The notes beneath the pieces were generated by a model. The model ran no database searches, was not told where the DNA came from, and saw only the letters and a list, made by a program, of their open reading frames with translations. From positions 248,001 through 312,000 of the forward strand of contig NZ_JAVDUV010000002.1 in NCBI RefSeq assembly GCF_031456545.1: 64,000 bases of DNA, read 5' to 3'. Below are positions 35,123-45,324 of this stretch, in pieces. A program made the translations under genes and the position numbers. The DNA comes from Agromyces sp. 3263. Its GTDB lineage: Bacteria > Actinomycetota > Actinomycetes > Actinomycetales > Microbacteriaceae. The stretch's first letter is position 1. Each line of letters opens with the position of its first letter.

Positions 35123-35439
35123 CCTCGACCGATCGGGGAGGGCCTGCCGGGGCCGTCGTTCGGCGTTCACGATCGGTCGAAGCGCCCGGCCAACCGGGAA
35201 TTCCCGTTGCCATCCGCGCGTTGCACACTGTGGGCGAGGAGCGGGCGGAGCGACGTCCGGCCGACCCCGAGTCTGTATAATGGAGTCAGGACCCGTTCTG
35301 GTCTGCTGGCGCAGTTCACGTGCGCCGACGAAGCAGACTTGACATGGGTCCTCATAGTGTCCGAAAACGACCGGGCCGACAGCACGAGCCGAGCGCCCGA
35401 GAGGGCACGCGCCGGGCAACGGTAGGAGAGGTTCAACCA
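35123..35439 (+). promoter_or_regulatory. Upstream region and 5' leader of rpoD
   Basis: A 317-bp stretch without a gene. It holds a perfect consensus -10 TATAAT at 35276-35281, the only one I see in an intergenic region here, with no good -35 at 17 bp and no exact TGn extension. The start would be near 35288, giving a leader of about 150 nt that begins with the nested hairpin described separately and ends with AGGAGAGG before ATG 35440. In-frame ATG 35344 exists but lacks a ribosome site. Confidence 0.7.
35288..35352 (+). ncRNA. Structured 5' leader element of rpoD mRNA
   Basis: Three nested stems: AGGACCC (35288-35294) / GGGTCCT (35346-35352); GTCTGC (35301-35306) / GCAGAC (35333-35338); GGCGCA (35308-35313) / TGCGCC (35321-35326) with loop GTTCACG. 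The outer stem begins at the predicted first transcribed base, so the mRNA would carry a 65-nt structured 5' end. No riboswitch class is recognised. Confidence 0.5.
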
Positions 35440-36819
35440 ATGGCAACGACGAAGGCTGCGACGTCGGCGAAGAGCGAGGCGGACAAGCCCGCTGCGCGCA
35501 CGACGGCTGCGAAGTCGACCGCCGCGAAGACCGCCGCGACGGCCACCAAGGCCTCCGCGGCGAAGGCCGGCACGAAGGCGGTCACCCCAGCGACGAAGAC
35601 GCCGCGCACCAGCACGGCCAAGACCGCCGCCAAGCCGCGCACCAAGGCCAAGGCCGGCGCGACGGGCGACGATGAGGACGAGGTCGAGCCCGGCGAGCTC
35701 GAAGAGGTCGAGGTCGACGCCGAGGTCGAGGTCGAGGTCGACACGGCGGCGGTCGTCGAGGCCCCCGAGACGGATGCCGACACCGACACCGACGACGACG
35801 AGGCGAAGCCCGTCGCGGTCGAGCCGCACCCGACGGGCGCGCTGGTGCTGCGCGCCGTCGACGACGAGGACGAGGTGCCGGTCTACTCGAGCGCGATCAC
35901 CGGTGCGACAGCGGACCCGGTCAAGGACTACCTGAAGCAGATCGGCAAGGTCGCGCTCCTGAACGCGGCCGAAGAGGTCGAACTCGCAATGCGCATCGAG
36001 GCGGGCCTGTTCGCCGAGGAGAAGCTGTCTCACATGAGCGACGCCGAGAAGCGCTCCCAGCTCGGTCGTGAGTTGCAGTGGGTCGCGAAGGACGGGCAGC
36101 GCGCGAAGAGCCACCTGCTGGGCGCGAACCTGCGCCTCGTGGTCTCGCTCGCCAAGCGCTACACCGGTCGCGGCATGCAGTTCCTCGACCTGATCCAGGA
36201 GGGAAACCTGGGCCTGATCCGTGCGGTCGAGAAGTTCGACTACACCAAGGGCTTCAAGTTCTCCACGTACGCGACGTGGTGGATCCGCCAGGCGATCACC
36301 CGCGCCATGGCCGACCAGGCTCGCACCATCCGCATCCCGGTGCACATGGTCGAGGTCATCAACAAGCTCGCCCGCGTGCAGCGGCAGATGCTGCAGGACC
36401 TGGGTCGCGAGCCCACGCCCGAGGAGCTGAGCCGCGAGCTCGACATGACCCCCGAGAAGGTCATCGAGGTGCAGAAGTACGGCCGCGAGCCCATCTCGCT
36501 GCACACGCCCCTGGGCGAGGACGGCGACAGCGAGTTCGGCGACCTCATCGAGGACACCGAGGCGGTCGTGCCCGCGGACGCGGTCGGCTTCACGATGCTG
36601 CAGAAGCAGCTGGAGTCGCTGCTCGACTCGCTGAGCGAGCGTGAGGCGGGCGTGATCCGCATGCGCTTCGGCCTCGGCGACGGCATGCCGAAGACCCTCG
36701 ACCAGATCGGCGACACCTTCGGCGTGACCCGTGAGCGGATCCGCCAGATCGAGTCGAAGACGATGGCGAAGCTGCGCCACCCGTCGCGGTCGCAGTCGCT
36801 CCGCGACTACCTCGAGTAG
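35440..36819 (+). CDS. rpoD: Primary RNA polymerase sigma factor (SigA/HrdB)
   Basis: 459 residues. N-terminal 95 residues are Lys/Ala/Thr-rich repeats then an acidic stretch, as in actinobacterial HrdB/SigA. Core regions are intact: 1.2 ([16 protein letters not shown]), 2 ([53 protein letters not shown], recognising the -10), 3 ([15 protein letters not shown]) and 4 ([19 protein letters not shown], recognising the -35). Start ATG 35440 has AGGAGAGG upstream. murT follows after 7 bp. Confidence 0.97.
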
Positions 36820-36826
36820 GACCCAG

Positions 36827-38083
36827 GTGCGCTACGCGCCGGCGATCCTCGTCGGCAGGCTCACCCGATTCGCCGCCCGGCTGCGCAAGCCGGGCGGCGG
36901 TTCGGCTGTTCCGGGACTCGTCGTCAACCGCCTCGCGCCCGGGTACCTGACCCGCACGCTGTCCGGCTTCCCGCAGGGACTCGTCGTGGTCTCCGGCTCG
37001 AGCGGCAAGTCGACCACCACGAAGATGCTCGTGGCGATCCTCCGCGCCCACGGCATCGACGTGTTCACAAACCCGTCCACCGCGAACATCAGCCAGGGGC
37101 TCACCTCCGCATTGCTCGAACGGGCGGACTGGCAGGGCCGAGTGCCGGGCGAGGTCGCCGTGCTCGAGATGGACGAGGGCCACGGCGCCCTCGTCATGCA
37201 GGGCGTCGATGCCCGGGTGGTCGCGCTCACCAACGTGATGGTCGACCAGATCGACCGCTTCCACGATTCCGAGATGGTGGCCGGGATGCTCGAGCGCATC
37301 GCCGCGCGAGCGCACGAGGCGATCGTGGTGAACGCGGACGACGCCTACCTCGAGCGGCTGGCGGCAAAGGCCGGGCCCGGCGTGGCGGTGCGGCGGTTCG
37401 GGGTGTCCGCCGACGTCCTCGCGCGCTCGCCTCGCGGCCTCGGGTACACCGAGACCACGGGCGGGCGCCTCGGTTCGAGCGACGGAGTGGTCGTGGCCTC
37501 GGTCGACGGGGCGGCCGCGGTGCTGCGCGACGGCGAGGCATCCGTCGAGATCACGCTGCCCGCGAGGGGCACGCACTACGCGGTCGACGCGGCCGCGGCC
37601 TACGCCACGGCACAGGCCGTGCTGGGGGAGCGGTTCGCCGCCTCCACGGCAGCCGACGCCCTGAGCGCCATTCCCGCGGTGTTCGGCCGCGGCGAGCGGG
37701 TGACCGTGCGCGGTCACGAGGTCGAGTTCGTGCTGGTGCAGAACCCCGCGAGCTACCAGCTGAACGTGGACAGCATCGAACCGGGCACCGAGCAGATCCT
37801 CTTCGCGATCGGGTCCGACGTGCGTGACCCGTCCTATCTCTGGCCGACGGATGCCTCGTCGCTCGGCCGTGTCTCCATCGTCAGCGGCTCGAAGGCCGCC
37901 GAGGCGGCGCTGATGCTCGCGTACGACGGCGTCGCCATCGACCGGGTGGAGCCCGACCTCGGACAAGCCCTGGACGACTTCCTCGCCGCGCCGGAGCCCG
38001 GCTCCGGCGTGAAGACCATCGTGTTCTCCGCCGACGCCATGCGCCGGACACGCGCCCACCTCGGACTCACGGGAGCGGAATGA
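36827..38083 (+). CDS. murT: MurT-like Mur ligase without the zinc ribbon
   Basis: 418 residues from GTG 36827, AGGA overlapping the rpoD stop. In other bacteria MurT with GatD amidates the alpha-carboxyl of D-Glu in lipid II. Visible: P-loop SGSSGKSTTTKML, VLEMDEGHGALV, TNVMVDQIDRFHD, VNADDAYLERLAA, VLVQNPASYQLN, and DVRDPSYLW where MurT has its catalytic-triad Asp region. The four-Cys zinc ribbon normally inserted in the middle domain is missing; the protein contains no cysteine at all. Stop overlaps the gatD start (ATGA), as for a two-subunit complex. The altered sites suggest a changed reaction. Confidence 0.85.
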   Translation: MRYAPAILVGRLTRFAARLRKPGGGSAVPGLVVNRLAPGYLTRTLSGFPQGLVVVSGSSGKSTTTKMLVAILRAHGIDVFTNPSTANISQGLTSALLERADWQGRVPGEVAVLEMDEGHGALVMQGVDARVVALTNVMVDQIDRFHDSEMVAGMLERIAARAHEAIVVNADDAYLERLAAKAGPGVAVRRFGVSADVLARSPRGLGYTETTGGRLGSSDGVVVASVDGAAAVLRDGEASVEITLPARGTHYAVDAAAAYATAQAVLGERFAASTAADALSAIPAVFGRGERVTVRGHEVEFVLVQNPASYQLNVDSIEPGTEQILFAIGSDVRDPSYLWPTDASSLGRVSIVSGSKAAEAALMLAYDGVAIDRVEPDLGQALDDFLAAPEPGSGVKTIVFSADAMRRTRAHLGLTGAE

Positions 38084-38826
38084 CCACCCTGAACATCGTG
38101 TCGCTCCTGCCCTCGCTGATGAACACGAACGGCGATGCCGAGAATGCGACGGTGCTCCAGCGGCGCGCGGAATGGGCCGGCCTCGAGGCGTGTGTCATCG
38201 CCGTCGACTCGCCCGCCGACCTGCCGGGTCGGGTGGACGCGGTCGTGATCGGCTCGGGAAGCGACGCCTCGCTCGAGGCGGTCCGGTCGAAGCTGCTCAC
38301 GATCCACGACGAGTTGCGCACGTGGGGCACCGACGGAATCCCGATCCTCTCGGTCGGCACCGGGTGGGAGCTGCTGAGCTGGGGGATCGAGCGCCGCGAC
38401 GGCTCGACCGTCGAGGGCCTCGGCATCCTCCCGGGGCGTGCCGTGCCCCGCGACGGCCGGGCCACCGGCGATGTCGTCGTCGCGTCGCCGCGGTTCGGGC
38501 TGCTCGTCGGGTTCGAGAACCATGCCCGAGACTACGTCGGCGCCGAGGGCTCGCCGCTCGGGCGCCTCCGCTCGGGCACCGGCAACGGCCGCGGCTCGGG
38601 CCAGGAGGGCGTCGTGATGGGCGCGGTCATCGGCACGCACCTGCACGGTCCCGTGCTGGCGAAGAACCCGGAGTTCGCCGATCACCTGCTCGCGTCGATG
38701 GCGGAGCGGGCCGGGCTCGAGTACGTGGCCGGGCCTGCGGCAGCTGTCGCCGACGCGTACGCGGCTGTTGCGCGCGAGACGCAGCTCGCGGCCGTCGGCG
38801 CCGCGGCATCCGTCACCGAGGCCTGA
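38080..38826 (+). CDS. gatD: GatD-like glutaminase subunit lacking the catalytic cysteine
   Basis: 248 residues, CobQ/CobB-type class I glutamine amidotransferase fold. The usual GICGGYQxLG nucleophile elbow is ILSVGTGWELLSWG here: position 93, aligned with S. aureus GatD Cys94, is Gly. The only Cys (C38) is far away. The catalytic His is kept in GTHLHGPVLAKNP (H187/H189). Such a protein should not hydrolyse glutamine, so it may channel another amine donor or act structurally for MurT. In group-B peptidoglycan of Microbacteriaceae the D-Glu alpha-carboxyl is used for the cross-link instead of amidation, which fits; this link is inference. Confidence 0.85.
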   Translation: MTTLNIVSLLPSLMNTNGDAENATVLQRRAEWAGLEACVIAVDSPADLPGRVDAVVIGSGSDASLEAVRSKLLTIHDELRTWGTDGIPILSVGTGWELLSWGIERRDGSTVEGLGILPGRAVPRDGRATGDVVVASPRFGLLVGFENHARDYVGAEGSPLGRLRSGTGNGRGSGQEGVVMGAVIGTHLHGPVLAKNPEFADHLLASMAERAGLEYVAGPAAAVADAYAAVARETQLAAVGAAASVTEA

Positions 38827-38909: not shown

Positions 38910-39146
38910 TCAGTCGCGGCCGTCGACGAGGAGCTTGCTCGACTCGTCGTGCCAGCTGTGCGCGATCTGCGAGAGCTTCTCCTGGTGCTTGCGGCCGTGG
39001 TGGGCGCAGAACAGCAGCTCGCCGCTAGCGACGACGACCCGGATGTAGGCCTGGGCGCCGCACGCGTCACAGCGGTCGAGCGCGGTGAGCTCATATGGGG
39101 TGTCGAGTTCGTCGACCGCACCGGTGGTGTCGGTGTAGTTCGTCAT
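38910..39146 (-). CDS. DUF7455 small zinc-ribbon protein
   Basis: 78 residues. Cys pairs RCDACGAQA and LLFCAHHGRKH form a probable zinc site. The family is a small conserved actinobacterial protein of unknown role, commonly near the sigma factor/topoisomerase IV genes. ATG 39146 is preceded by a very strong AGGAGGAG site, so it is well expressed. A longer reading frame upstream was not used because of that site. Confidence 0.85.
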   Translation of the reverse strand: MTNYTDTTGAVDELDTPYELTALDRCDACGAQAYIRVVVASGELLFCAHHGRKHQEKLSQIAHSWHDESSKLLVDGRD

Positions 39147-39292
39147 GGCTCCTCCTCCTGGCTCACGCTCGATGCTTCCGTTCCTCAATGAAAGCACGCC
39201 CGCGGCGGTCCACCGCCCGTTGAGCCGGGCATTTCGCTCAGCGCGTAGCGCCTCGCACGCGGTGTCGTCGACCGTCAGTAGGCTTGTGCGAC

Positions 39293-41371
<2,079 letters not shown>

Positions 41372-41384
41372 GTGCCCATCGAGG

Positions 41385-42719
41385 TCAGCCCCGGCTCGGC
41401 CGGATGTTCTGGTTGAGGTGGAAGGCGTTGCCCGGGTCGTACCGGTCCTTGACCGCCGTGAGCCTGGCCAGCTTGTGCTCGGTGTAGGCCCGCCGGAGCC
41501 CGGCGGCTCCATCGTCGCCGAGCACGTTGACATAGGCGCCGCTGGCATAGTCGTCGAGCGCCGCGGCGTAGCGGCGAGCGGCCGACATCCGTGCCTCGTC
41601 CTCGGCCGGGTCGCTCCAGCGCGACGCCGCGACGAATTCGAAGGCGGTGTCGCGCCTGGCGAACGCCGTGTCGGCGTCGGGCACGTCGGCGATCGCCCCG
41701 CCGTACGCCTGCAGGCTCACGTTCGGGAGGTCGGGCCCCTCACGGGTGAGAAGGGCATCGATCGCCTCGTCGCCCAGTGCGCTGAAGTAGTGGCCCTTCC
41801 AGTACCGGCGCCACGCGTGGCCCTTCTCGTCGTCCTCGCGGGTCTGCAGTTCGAGGTACGTCATCGGGATGATGGTCTCCTGCACAGGCTCGGCGTCGCG
41901 GGCGAGCTCGTCGCGGAGCGCCGAGATGATCGCGTCACCCTCGGCCGGGTCCCCGACCCAGACCAGACCGAGTGCGACCACCTGGCCGACGATCGTCACG
42001 GTGAAGGTGGCCCGCCGTGGCGCCGCGCCGCTCAGGTCACGCCAGCGGCGCATCGGGACGCCGGCTTCGGCGGCCGCGAAGTGGAACTCGGCGGCGATGG
42101 CGTGCCCCGTCTCGGGATGCAGTGCGAACTCGAAGTCCGTGACGACACCGAAGTTGCCGCCTCCACCGCGCAGTGCCCAGAACAGGTCGGGACGCTCCTC
42201 GGCACTCGTGTGCACGACCTCGCCATCGGCGGTGACCATCTCGAACGAGACCACGTTGTCGCACGTGAGGCCGTGCTCCCGTGCCAGCCAGCCCATCCCG
42301 CCGCCGAGGGTGAGGCCGCCGACGCCCGTGTGCGAGACGTTCCCCGCTGTGGTGGCGAGGCCGTGCGCCTGCGCCGCGCGGTCGAGCGCGCCGAGCAAGG
42401 CGCCGCCCTGCACGCGTGCGCGCCGGGACGCCGGGTCGACCGCGACCGCTCCCATCGGTCGCAGGTCGATCATGAGACCGTCATCCGGCACGGCGTGACC
42501 GACGATGCCGTGGCCGCCGCAGCGGATGCCGAGGTCGAGGTCGTGCGCCCGCGCGAACCGCACGGCATCGGCGACATCCCCGGCGCCTGCGCACTGCACC
42601 ACGTATCGCGGCGTGCGATCGATCATCGCATTCCATACGGTGCGCGCCCCGTCGTAGCCAGGATCTCCCGGCTCGAGCACCCGGCCGTCGATCGTCGATC
42701 CGAGCGTTGTCCGCGTCAT
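41385..42719 (-). CDS. FAD-binding oxidoreductase (berberine-bridge-like)
   Basis: 444 residues from ATG 42719 (GGAGGGG upstream). PCMH-type FAD domain with GIRCGGHGIVGHA, where the His may bind FAD covalently; the region NVSHTGVGGLTLGGGMGW has no Cys, so the second (cysteinyl) bond of bicovalent enzymes is absent. The C-terminal berberine-like domain ends DRYDPGNAFHLNQNIRP. Relatives oxidise sugars or natural products; substrate unknown. It sits between parE and parC, which is not a functional neighbourhood, and ends 13 bp from the parE stop. A later insertion at this locus is possible, but I see no transfer signature in its codon use. Confidence 0.9.
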   Translation of the reverse strand: MTRTTLGSTIDGRVLEPGDPGYDGARTVWNAMIDRTPRYVVQCAGAGDVADAVRFARAHDLDLGIRCGGHGIVGHAVPDDGLMIDLRPMGAVAVDPASRRARVQGGALLGALDRAAQAHGLATTAGNVSHTGVGGLTLGGGMGWLAREHGLTCDNVVSFEMVTADGEVVHTSAEERPDLFWALRGGGGNFGVVTDFEFALHPETGHAIAAEFHFAAAEAGVPMRRWRDLSGAAPRRATFTVTIVGQVVALGLVWVGDPAEGDAIISALRDELARDAEPVQETIIPMTYLELQTREDDEKGHAWRRYWKGHYFSALGDEAIDALLTREGPDLPNVSLQAYGGAIADVPDADTAFARRDTAFEFVAASRWSDPAEDEARMSAARRYAAALDDYASGAYVNVLGDDGAAGLRRAYTEHKLARLTAVKDRYDPGNAFHLNQNIRPSRG

Positions 42720-42849
42720 CGCGCCCCCTCCATACGGCTGGGCGGTCGACGGCCGTCGGTCGTGTCGTCGCAGCCACGCCCGAATATGCCGCGGCGTGGG
42801 TCGGGCGTCAAGGTCGGGCGGCCTCAGCAGCGCAGGCCGACCGCCGGTC

Positions 42850-45324
42850 TCAGCCGATGCGGGCGCCGATCGCGGCGACGACGGCTTCGAGCGGCTGACC
42901 CGACCCGTCGCGCTTCGCCCCGCCGTCGGGCAGCTGCCGGGCCGACCCGTCGGCGCCGACCGCCAGCGCGGGGGAGCGGCCCACCCAGGCCAGGTGCAAC
43001 GCATCCTCGCCCTTCAGGAACCGCTGGGCACGCACGCCCCCGGTGGCCCGCCCCTTGGGCGGGAATTCCGCGAACGAACTCACCTTCGCCGAGCCCGGGT
43101 CGGTGCCGAGCAGCGTCTCGTTGCTCGCGGCCACCGTCACCACGACTGCATCGTCGGCCGCGTCGGCGGGAATGCTCGTGAAATGGACGACGTGGGAGCC
43201 GGCGGCGAGGTTGATGCCCGCCATGCCGCCGGCGGGGCAGCCCTGCGGACGCACGCTGGATGCCGGGAACCGCAGCAGCTGAGCATCGGATGCCACGAAC
43301 ACGAGCTCGTCGGACTCGTCGCCCTGGACCGCACCGACGACCTCGTCGCCGGCCTTCAGGCCGATGACCTCGAACTCGGGCTTGTTGGGGTACGCGCCCG
43401 TGGAGACCCGCTTCACGACCCCCTGCTTGGTGCCGAGGGCGATCGAGCGATCGCCGTCGAGCGAGACGAGTGCGAGCACCTTCTCGTCGCGGTTCGGCAG
43501 CGCGAGGTAGTCACCGACCCGGACACCGGCGCCGAGCTGCACGGAGGTCGGCGGCAGCATCGGCAGGTCGACGGGCGTGAACCGGATGAGGCGGCCGAGG
43601 CTGGTGACGGCCCCGATCTCGGCCCGGCTGCTGGTGTCGATGGTCGATCGGATCGCGTCGTGCTTGCTGCGGCGGGCGGGCGGCGTGATGGTCGGCGGCC
43701 CGTCGGGACCGTCGGGCAGGTCGACCCGCGCGATGCGCCCGGTGGCGCTGAGGAACACGCGGCACGGGACGTCCGCCACCTCGAGCACGGCGGCCTGTCG
43801 CTTGGCGGCCGCCCCGGCGATGCTCGGACGGGCGTCGGTGAGCAGGGTGCGCCGCGGCGTGCCATAACGCTCGGCGACCTCGGCGAGCTCGTCGGACACG
43901 AGGGCTTCGATGCGATGACGGCTCGCCAGCAGCTCCTCGAGCTGGGCGATCTCGGCGCGCAGCTTGTCGCGTTCGGCTTCGAGCTCGATCCGCGAGAACT
44001 TGGTGAGCCGGCGCAGCTGCAGCTCGAGGATGTACTCGGCCTGCACGTGGCTGAGGTCGAACACCTCCATCAGGCGGGCGCGTGCCGCCGCGGTGTCGTC
44101 GCTCGACCGGATGACCTGGATGACCTCGTCGATGTCGAGGATGGCGATGAGCAGGCCGTCGACCAGGTGCAGGCGTTCGCGCCGGCGGGCGAGGCGGTAC
44201 TGCGACCGACGCGTGACGACCGAGATGCGGTGCGCCACGTACACCTGCAGCAGCTCGCGAAGCCCGAGGGTCTGCGGTCCGCCGTCGACGAGGGCGACGT
44301 TGTTGATGTTGAAGGAGTCTTCCAGCGGGGTGAGCCGGTAGAGCTGCTCGAGCACGGCGTCGGGACTGAAGCCGGTCTTGATCCCGATGACGAGCCGGAG
44401 CCCGTTGGTGCGGTCGGTGAGGTCGGTGACGTCCGAGATGCCGCTGATCTTCTTGGCGTTGACGCCGTCCTTGATCTTCTCGATGACCTTCTCGGGACCG
44501 ACGAGGTAGGGCAGTTCGGTGACGACGAGCCCGGTCTTGCGCGCGGTGATGTTCTCGACCCGCACCTTGGCCCGGGTCTTGAACGCGCCGCGGCCGGTGG
44601 CGTAGGCGTCCTTGATGCCGGCGAGGCCGACGATCGTGCCGCCGGTGGGAAGGTCGGGGCCGGGCACGAACTCCATGAGCTCGTCGAGCGTGGCATTCGG
44701 GTGTGCGATGAGGTGCCGGGCCGCCCCGACCACCTCGATGAGGTTGTGCGGCGCCATGTTGGTGGCCATGCCCACGGCGATGCCGCTGGCTCCGTTGACG
44801 AGCAGGTTCGGGTAGGCCGCCGGCAGCACCTCGGGCTGGGTCAGCTGGTTGTCGTAGTTCGGCACGAAGTCCACGACGTCCTCGTCGAGGCCCTCGGTCA
44901 TCGCCAGGGCGGGGGCGTCGAGCCGTGCCTCGGTGTATCGCGGCGCCGCCGGACCGTCGTCGAGTGAGCCGAAGTTGCCGTGGCCGTCGATGAGCGGCAC
45001 GCGGAGCGTGAACGCCTGCGCCATGCGGACGAGCGCGTCGTAGATGGCCGTGTCGCCGTGCGGATGCAGCTTGCCCATGACCTCGCCGACGACCCGCGCC
45101 GACTTCACGTGCCCTCGATCGGGCCTGAGCCCCATCTCGACCATCTGGTAGAGGATGCGTCGCTGCACGGGCTTCAGCCCGTCGCGTGCGTCGGGCAGTG
45201 CCCTCGAGTAGATGACCGAATAGGCGTACTCGAGGAACGAGCCCTGCATCTCGGTGGCGACGTCGACGTCTTCGATGCGTTCGACGATCGGTTCGTCTGC
45301 GGGCGGGTTCTTGGCTCGGGTCAT
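42850..45324 (-). CDS. parC: Topoisomerase IV/gyrase-type subunit A (ParC)
   Basis: 824 residues from ATG 45324. DNA-cleavage subunit: catalytic Tyr in APRYTEARL; quinolone-determining helix [17 protein letters not shown] has Thr where E. coli GyrA has Ser83 and Asp at the 87 position. The C-terminal beta-propeller carries [12 protein letters not shown], a degenerate GyrA box, arguing for topoisomerase IV rather than gyrase. Partner of ParE; a second set (gyrA/gyrB) is expected near oriC outside this window. Divergent from the phosphatase-like gene by 78 bp. Confidence 0.9.

Follow-up and report, generated by a model that had tools for sequence, protein, structure and literature searches.

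The window, a 64,000-nucleotide stretch of the genome of the soil bacterium Agromyces sp. 3263, encodes a MurT-GatD pair in which the Mur-ligase-type subunit has kept its catalytic residues and the glutaminase subunit lacks the nucleophilic Cys. Judging from sequence comparisons and gene neighbourhoods, this pair is probably a carboxylate-amine ligase that attaches an amino acid to D-Glu as part of the group-B peptidoglycan bridge, and it may build, rather than cap, the unusual cross-link of the Microbacteriaceae wall. The pair is a variant of MurT-GatD that falls outside the lipid II isoglutaminyl synthases, because a residue that defines these enzymes is missing. Taxonomists have relied on group-B peptidoglycan for decades, and neither a group-B bridge ligase nor a Cys-less GatD was named in the titles or abstract openings among the literature matches listed. 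A disarmed glutaminase next to an intact ligase, at a site that hosts several kinds of ligases, provides a short list of candidate genes for the group-B bond and, if the proposed function is true, illustrates a route by which an amidotransferase becomes an amino-acid ligase.

The murT-gatD locus and its products

On the forward strand of the window, rpoD is followed by murT and gatD, beyond which lie a gene on the reverse strand, whose product we take to be a DUF7455-type protein, and a parE-type gene (Table 1). The GTG start codon of murT is located 7 bases past the rpoD stop codon (36817-36819), and the junction between murT and gatD is an ATGA overlap. Further downstream, a gene resembling FAD-type oxidoreductases by eye occupies positions 41385-43004 of the reverse strand, between the parE-type and parC/gyrA-type genes.

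Table 1. Features of the murT-gatD locus, in positions of the window
Feature	Positions	Strand	Description
rpoD	35320-36819	+	Left anchor; start uncertain, gene name by eye
MurT	36827-38083	+	418 aa, 0 Cys, GTG start; Mur-ligase-type subunit with every tested catalytic residue in place
GatD	38080-38826	+	248 aa; glutaminase-fold subunit without nucleophilic Cys (pseudo-glutaminase)
Gly93 codon (GGC)	38356-38358	+	Replaces the catalytic Cys of GatD
His189 codon (CAC)	38644-38646	+	Catalytic His of GatD, kept
DUF7455-type small protein (presumed name)	38910-39197	-	Right anchor; query of the named-locus scan
parE/gyrB-type topoisomerase subunit	39284-41371	+	Right anchor; name by eye

In Pfam searches, MurT matched Mur_ligase_M (PF08245, 49.5 bits) and MurT_C (PF08353, 25.3 bits with a cut-off of 25), and GatD matched GATase_3 (PF07685, 59.2 bits). 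The scores against the corresponding NCBIfam equivalogs were far under the cut-offs (77.5 versus 800 bits for MurT and 84.3 versus 400 bits for GatD). Alignment with the S. aureus GatD placed Cys94 (TICGGYQFL) opposite Gly93 of the window protein (ILSVGTGWELL), with Asp, Arg and His189 retained. The AlphaFold models of the copies of both genes at locus L002 were confident (pLDDT of 95.5 for GatD and 93.9 for MurT). The best Foldseek match of the GatD model was the S. aureus GatD itself (6gs2_A; TM 0.89/0.91), and the best E-value for the MurT model was obtained with the S. aureus MurT, followed by MurF and MurE among the top matches. The alignment and the coordinates thus confirm what a sequence-only reading of this DNA had claimed, namely, that GatD has lost its nucleophile while keeping the catalytic His, and that the two genes overlap and closely follow rpoD. 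That reading also presupposed that no second, intact MurT-GatD is encoded in the same genome. A search of the window's genome for a second MurT or GatD found none, with one match each to PF08353, to GatD and to the MurT profile.

Adjacent, overlapping genes and the combination of a Mur-ligase fold with a CobB/CobQ-like GATase fold are shared by the window pair and the MurT-GatD of S. aureus, S. pneumoniae and S. pyogenes. The P-loop Lys, DE, DQxxR and the C-terminal Asp of the lipid II isoglutaminyl synthases are likewise present. In contrast to these enzymes, the window pair has neither the nucleophilic Cys nor the zinc-ribbon Cys residues, its oxyanion Gly motif is altered (GSG), and it resides at a fixed rpoD-parE locus. 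From MurC-F and related Mur ligases, the window MurT differs in having a GatD partner.

Cysteine loss in GatD across the Microbacteriaceae

GatD matches were found in 156 of the 199 Microbacteriaceae genomes sampled, and 114 GatD proteins of the family were read (the 30 best, 80 picked to spread genera and 4 fetched later). The catalytic Cys was missing from 99 of these (Gly in 70, Ala in 19, other residues in 10) and was kept in 15. By comparison, the Cys was present in all 34 GatDs read from nine further families within the order. A class-wide search yielded matches in 258 of 394 genomes, and among the 50 loci read (30 best and 20 picked), the 11 from Microbacteriaceae were Cys-less without exception; 37 of the 39 from elsewhere kept the Cys, and the other two (L291 and L315) were unreadable at this column. 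A few genomes are common to the order-level and class-wide sets. Thus, no Cys-less GatD was seen outside Microbacteriaceae in the order and class samples read, as expected from the sequence-only reading, which tied the loss of Cys to group-B walls. The other families of the order are generally regarded as having group-A walls.

The loss of Cys went along with a particular location. The end of rpoD was found in the locus of 92 of the 99 Cys-less GatDs compared to none of the 15 Cys-keepers; rpoD shares the strand in all 92 cases and is no more than 400 bases away from the MurT P-loop in 91. Of the seven remaining Cys-less loci, three are short (L019, L022 and L031), three are second copies located elsewhere (L055, L059 and L095), and one (L076) is at a contig end, yet has the DUF7455-type and parE genes. 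We also scanned for loci with the neighbouring DUF7455-type gene and analysed the best 80 of 543 relatives, a set of named loci that is therefore weighted toward the near kin of the window. MurT and GatD were present in 75 of these best 80, all of them Cys-less. Two others, from Agromyces seonyuensis and a Homoserinimonas MAG, carried an alternative cassette, and in the last three (two from Naasia and one from Amnibacterium) the gap was unmeasurable and a cassette gene was not found. Cys-less and Cys-keeping pairs occur together in four genomes (G054, G124, G163 and G066).

The sequence-only reading had further pointed to the Cys4 zinc ribbon of MurT, expecting that it would be lost together with the GatD Cys. 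The ribbon is indeed absent from the window MurT, which has no Cys at all, and the argument proved uninformative, because CxxC is also absent from MurT in 24 of the 34 Cys-keeping pairs from other families. Ribbon loss was therefore rejected as evidence; two CxxC motifs are present in MurT of 2 of the 99 Cys-less pairs. The ribbon is also reported not to be universal in the MurT family (PMC6085368).

In a phylogenetic tree of MurT with 117 rows, built from 150 MurTs after removal of 42 (mostly near-copies) and addition of 9 named ones, the loss of Cys corresponds to two events (branch support was SH-aLRT only). The first Cys-less clade consists of 83 rows and includes the window. The second comprises L111 and L147 (L148 shares the motif) and is nested among ribbon-bearing MurTs, a placement that is unsure because the branch is long. 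Both clades are located at rpoD-parE. The Cys-less GatD of L186 belongs to a locus outside this tree. The DQxDR motif varies between MurT subtypes; type 1 is found in Agromyces, Cryobacterium and Rathayibacter, and type 2 in most Leifsonia and in Clavibacter. We dropped the idea that the bridge diamino acid can be predicted from the MurT subtype alone, as the genera of both types are all known as diaminobutyrate (Dab) genera.

Ligases and racemase-fold genes in the rpoD-parE gap

MurT was scored as absent if the best E-value against the MurT profile, the background of which was given by other Mur ligases, was above 1e-30, with up to 8 candidates scored per genome. By this profile search, 37 of the 199 Microbacteriaceae genomes are devoid of MurT. 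CofE-like proteins (PF01996, at least 270 bits) were detected in 27 of these 37 genomes versus none of the 162 MurT-bearing ones (Fisher p 2e-25, for genomes that, being related, are not independent). The CofE-like gene was located behind rpoD in all 24 genomes checked and within 100 bases of it in 23. Accordingly, a member of the CofE, or F420-0:gamma-glutamyl ligase, family resides at the rpoD-parE locus in MurT-less relatives; CofE and MurT belong to different Pfam families. The cassette protein is distant from CofE itself (35.8 bits against the equivalog, with a cut-off of 180.65); the copy at L195 is the Microbacterium terrae protein. The CofE family consists of carboxylate-amine ligases, and a known member adds an amino acid. 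The exceptions to mutual exclusion are three weak CofE relatives encoded alongside MurT-like proteins. The cassette of L186 (G123) combines racemase-fold genes and a weak CofE relative with a MurT that bears the ribbon but has lost acidic residues, and with a GatD that has neither Cys nor His.

The exchange of the two ligases was traced on a tree of rpoD and parE from 76 loci, of which 56 have MurT, 17 CofE and 3 neither (the input drew on 27 of the 80 named loci, L150 and L049 were left out, and a few genomes are included twice). The best tree implied 11 switches between MurT and CofE, and 4-5 were counted if only well-supported branches were considered.

We extended twenty loci, selected for a missing or weak MurT, and relied on gene calls that were domain-checked or BLAST-matched. 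The gap contained CofE-like genes in 16 of these loci, ATP-grasp genes (PF14397) in 13, racemase-fold genes (PF01168/PF00842) in 14, murJ in 2 (L189 and L194) and a diaminobutyrate transaminase gene above the curated cut-off in 1; MurJ is the lipid II flippase family. Among the others, L201 holds MurT and a GatD remnant, L198 has an empty gap, and L200 contains unrelated genes. By eye, the gap content of L200, L351 and L353 (G049, G119 and G174) resembles an amino-acid ABC transporter, with no ligase. In L352 (G151), a MurE-like ligase (also by eye; about 498 aa) is encoded directly past rpoD and is possibly a further replacement.

The racemase-fold genes mostly come in pairs with a characteristic division of motifs. 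A motif search covered 61 loci that carry such genes, with a few genomes represented twice, and 50 of them showed one complementary pattern: one protein has the PLP-lysine motif without the VSYG tyrosine segment, and its partner shows the reverse (for example, L199, L195, L035 and L226). Alignments of the L199 pair to solved alanine racemases agree with this split. The PLP lysine and the catalytic tyrosine of alanine racemase meet across the dimer, so the two proteins may form one mixed active site and are possibly a heterodimeric racemase with a shared site. No racemase-fold gene was found at 54 named loci of type 1, the kind found in the window. The genome of the window has four PF01168 matches, one of them a strong match to alanine racemase, and a dat-family transaminase (459 bits versus a cut-off of 401.6).

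Not every genome has a ligase in the gap. MurT and a strong CofE-like ligase are both missing from ten of the 199 genomes; completeness is 98% or higher for 7 of these. We also picked 20 genomes in which MurT is either lacking or exclusively of the Cys-keeping or ribbon type; the gap was empty in 16 of them, with rpoD adjoining the DUF7455-type gene or parE directly. One of the empty-gap genomes, G014, encodes an intact Cys-keeping pair elsewhere, and the named relatives of its GatD are from Leucobacter. Because Leucobacter chironomi is reported to have a B-type wall (PMC4511665), the empty gap of G014 implies that the group-B bond has another maker there.

The content of the gap leads us to a broader proposal, in which our confidence is evenly divided: the rpoD-parE gap of Microbacteriaceae would be a cross-bridge cassette site for group-B peptidoglycan, its ligases being interchangeable. 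The ligase would be either MurT, at least two recruitments of which, each with a pseudo-glutaminase, are implied, or a CofE-like protein with an ATP-grasp protein, and this ligase and a two-protein racemase would together decide which amino acids link the strands.

Proposed function of the pair and alternative explanations

The cross-link of group-B walls is formed via the alpha-carboxyl of D-Glu. Mur ligases activate a carboxyl in an ATP-dependent manner, after which it is attacked by an amino acid or dipeptide. The group-B bond needs a carboxyl-activating ligase, and MurT is one that is already aimed at the relevant group, since the target of the characterised MurTs is reported to be the alpha-carboxyl of D-Glu (PMC3266927, PMC6085368). 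By analogy with MurT and the Mur ligases, the window MurT would use ATP to convert this carboxyl of the peptidoglycan precursor into an acyl phosphate. Instead of ammonia made by GatD, a free amino acid would then attack, for which diaminobutyrate is the likeliest candidate in this Agromyces, and its addition would start the interpeptide bridge of the group-B wall. GatD would act as a structural partner needed by MurT. This role is suggested by the C94G mutant of S. aureus GatD, which is reported to lose the use of glutamine and to keep NH3-dependent activity at pH 8.5, and by the reported inactivity of S. aureus MurT without GatD (PMC3266927); a natural Gly93 GatD could, therefore, allow MurT to remain active with a free amine as the substrate. 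In relatives, the same step would be carried out by the CofE-like ligase, often accompanied by the ATP-grasp protein, in place of MurT, and the racemase-fold pair often found in their gap could supply a D-amino acid. That a CofE-family protein takes the place of MurT and has racemase and Dab-transaminase partners argues for an amino acid as the amine.

The reported walls are group-B types, with B2gamma in Agromyces aureus (PMC5217419), B2beta, B2gamma or B1 in other genera (PMC7033078, PMC5945732) and, in Clavibacter, a D-Dab bridge that starts from D-Glu (PMC9603630); printed wall structures were matched to loci for Agromyces and Clavibacter only. The sequence-only reading had cast the pair as an amino-acid ligase that builds the group-B bridge. 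The genomic side of this claim stands, with Cys loss observed only in Microbacteriaceae among the samples read, an intact ligase, a fixed locus and, at the same site in relatives, other ligases, racemase-fold genes and, once, a Dab transaminase. What has to be given up is the pair as the sole builder of group-B walls. The pair is not present in every member of the family: CofE-like proteins are found instead in 27 of the 199 genomes, neither ligase in 10, and an empty gap in 16 of the 20 picked genomes, including the one matching Leucobacter. A Microbacterium carries the CofE-like cassette; the glycine of the Gly-D-Orn bridge of Microbacterium is given no weight here. The lack of racemase-fold genes at type-1 loci, the four genomes with both kinds of pair and the weak CofE relatives next to MurT-like proteins also weigh against the favoured reading.

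An alternative that we regard as unlikely is that the pair still makes D-isoglutamine, from free ammonia instead of glutamine, with GatD as a scaffold. The gap of the relatives speaks against ammonia, as it holds other ligase families, one with a known member that adds an amino acid, as well as racemase-fold genes and, once, a Dab transaminase; moreover, the group-B cross-link and amidation would compete for the alpha-carboxyl. The observations that favour this alternative are the NH3-dependent amidation by the C94G mutant at pH 8.5 and the amidated D-Glu muropeptides reported for Clavibacter michiganensis (PMC9603630), the locus of which is Cys-less, but the use of NH3 was not seen at pH 7.5 in S. 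aureus (PMC3266927).

Slightly less probable again is the addition of an amino acid or amine to a different carboxyl of the wall precursor, such as that of 3-hydroxyglutamate, the bridge diamino acid or a side branch. Such a variable decoration would fit with a locus that is empty or differently filled in some lineages and with the subtype difference at the DQxDR motif of MurT; yet, the activity of the characterised MurTs is directed at the alpha-carboxyl of D-Glu (PMC3266927, PMC6085368), and the group-B bridge requires exactly the bond at this position. Amino-acid addition to the alpha-carboxyl of D-Glu remains the reading that we favour.

The sequence-only reading had also held that the genes are not decaying, and this was borne out. 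In all 99 Cys-less pairs, MurT has Lys59, Asn85, Glu110, Asp112, Glu113 and Arg140 (S. pneumoniae numbering, with the residue roles from PMC6085368); Asp136 is present in 98 and Asp355 in 96. By contrast, the catalytic His of GatD, kept in the window, is gone in 31 of the 99 pairs, and the Cys, His, Asp and Arg of GatD are kept by all Cys-keepers, both the 15 from Microbacteriaceae and the 34 from other families. The ligase is therefore strictly constrained in the Cys-less pairs, and the glutaminase is not. The median dN/dS versus the window over 18 Agromyces loci was 0.31 for GatD, 0.19 for MurT, 0.08 for rpoD and 0.10 for parE; selection on GatD is relaxed but present. A degenerating amidotransferase, now dispensable for group-B walls and left as a relic, would be consistent with the faster evolution of GatD compared to MurT and with the lineage of L201, which has only a GatD remnant, but is highly improbable given that five MurT active-site residues are invariant in 99 of 99 pairs, that dN/dS is well below 1 for both genes and that the locus is kept across many genera. 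MurT is also kept in two small genomes, G081 (L149), where GatD was undetected, and G144 (L201), where the GatD remnant is 177 aa long.
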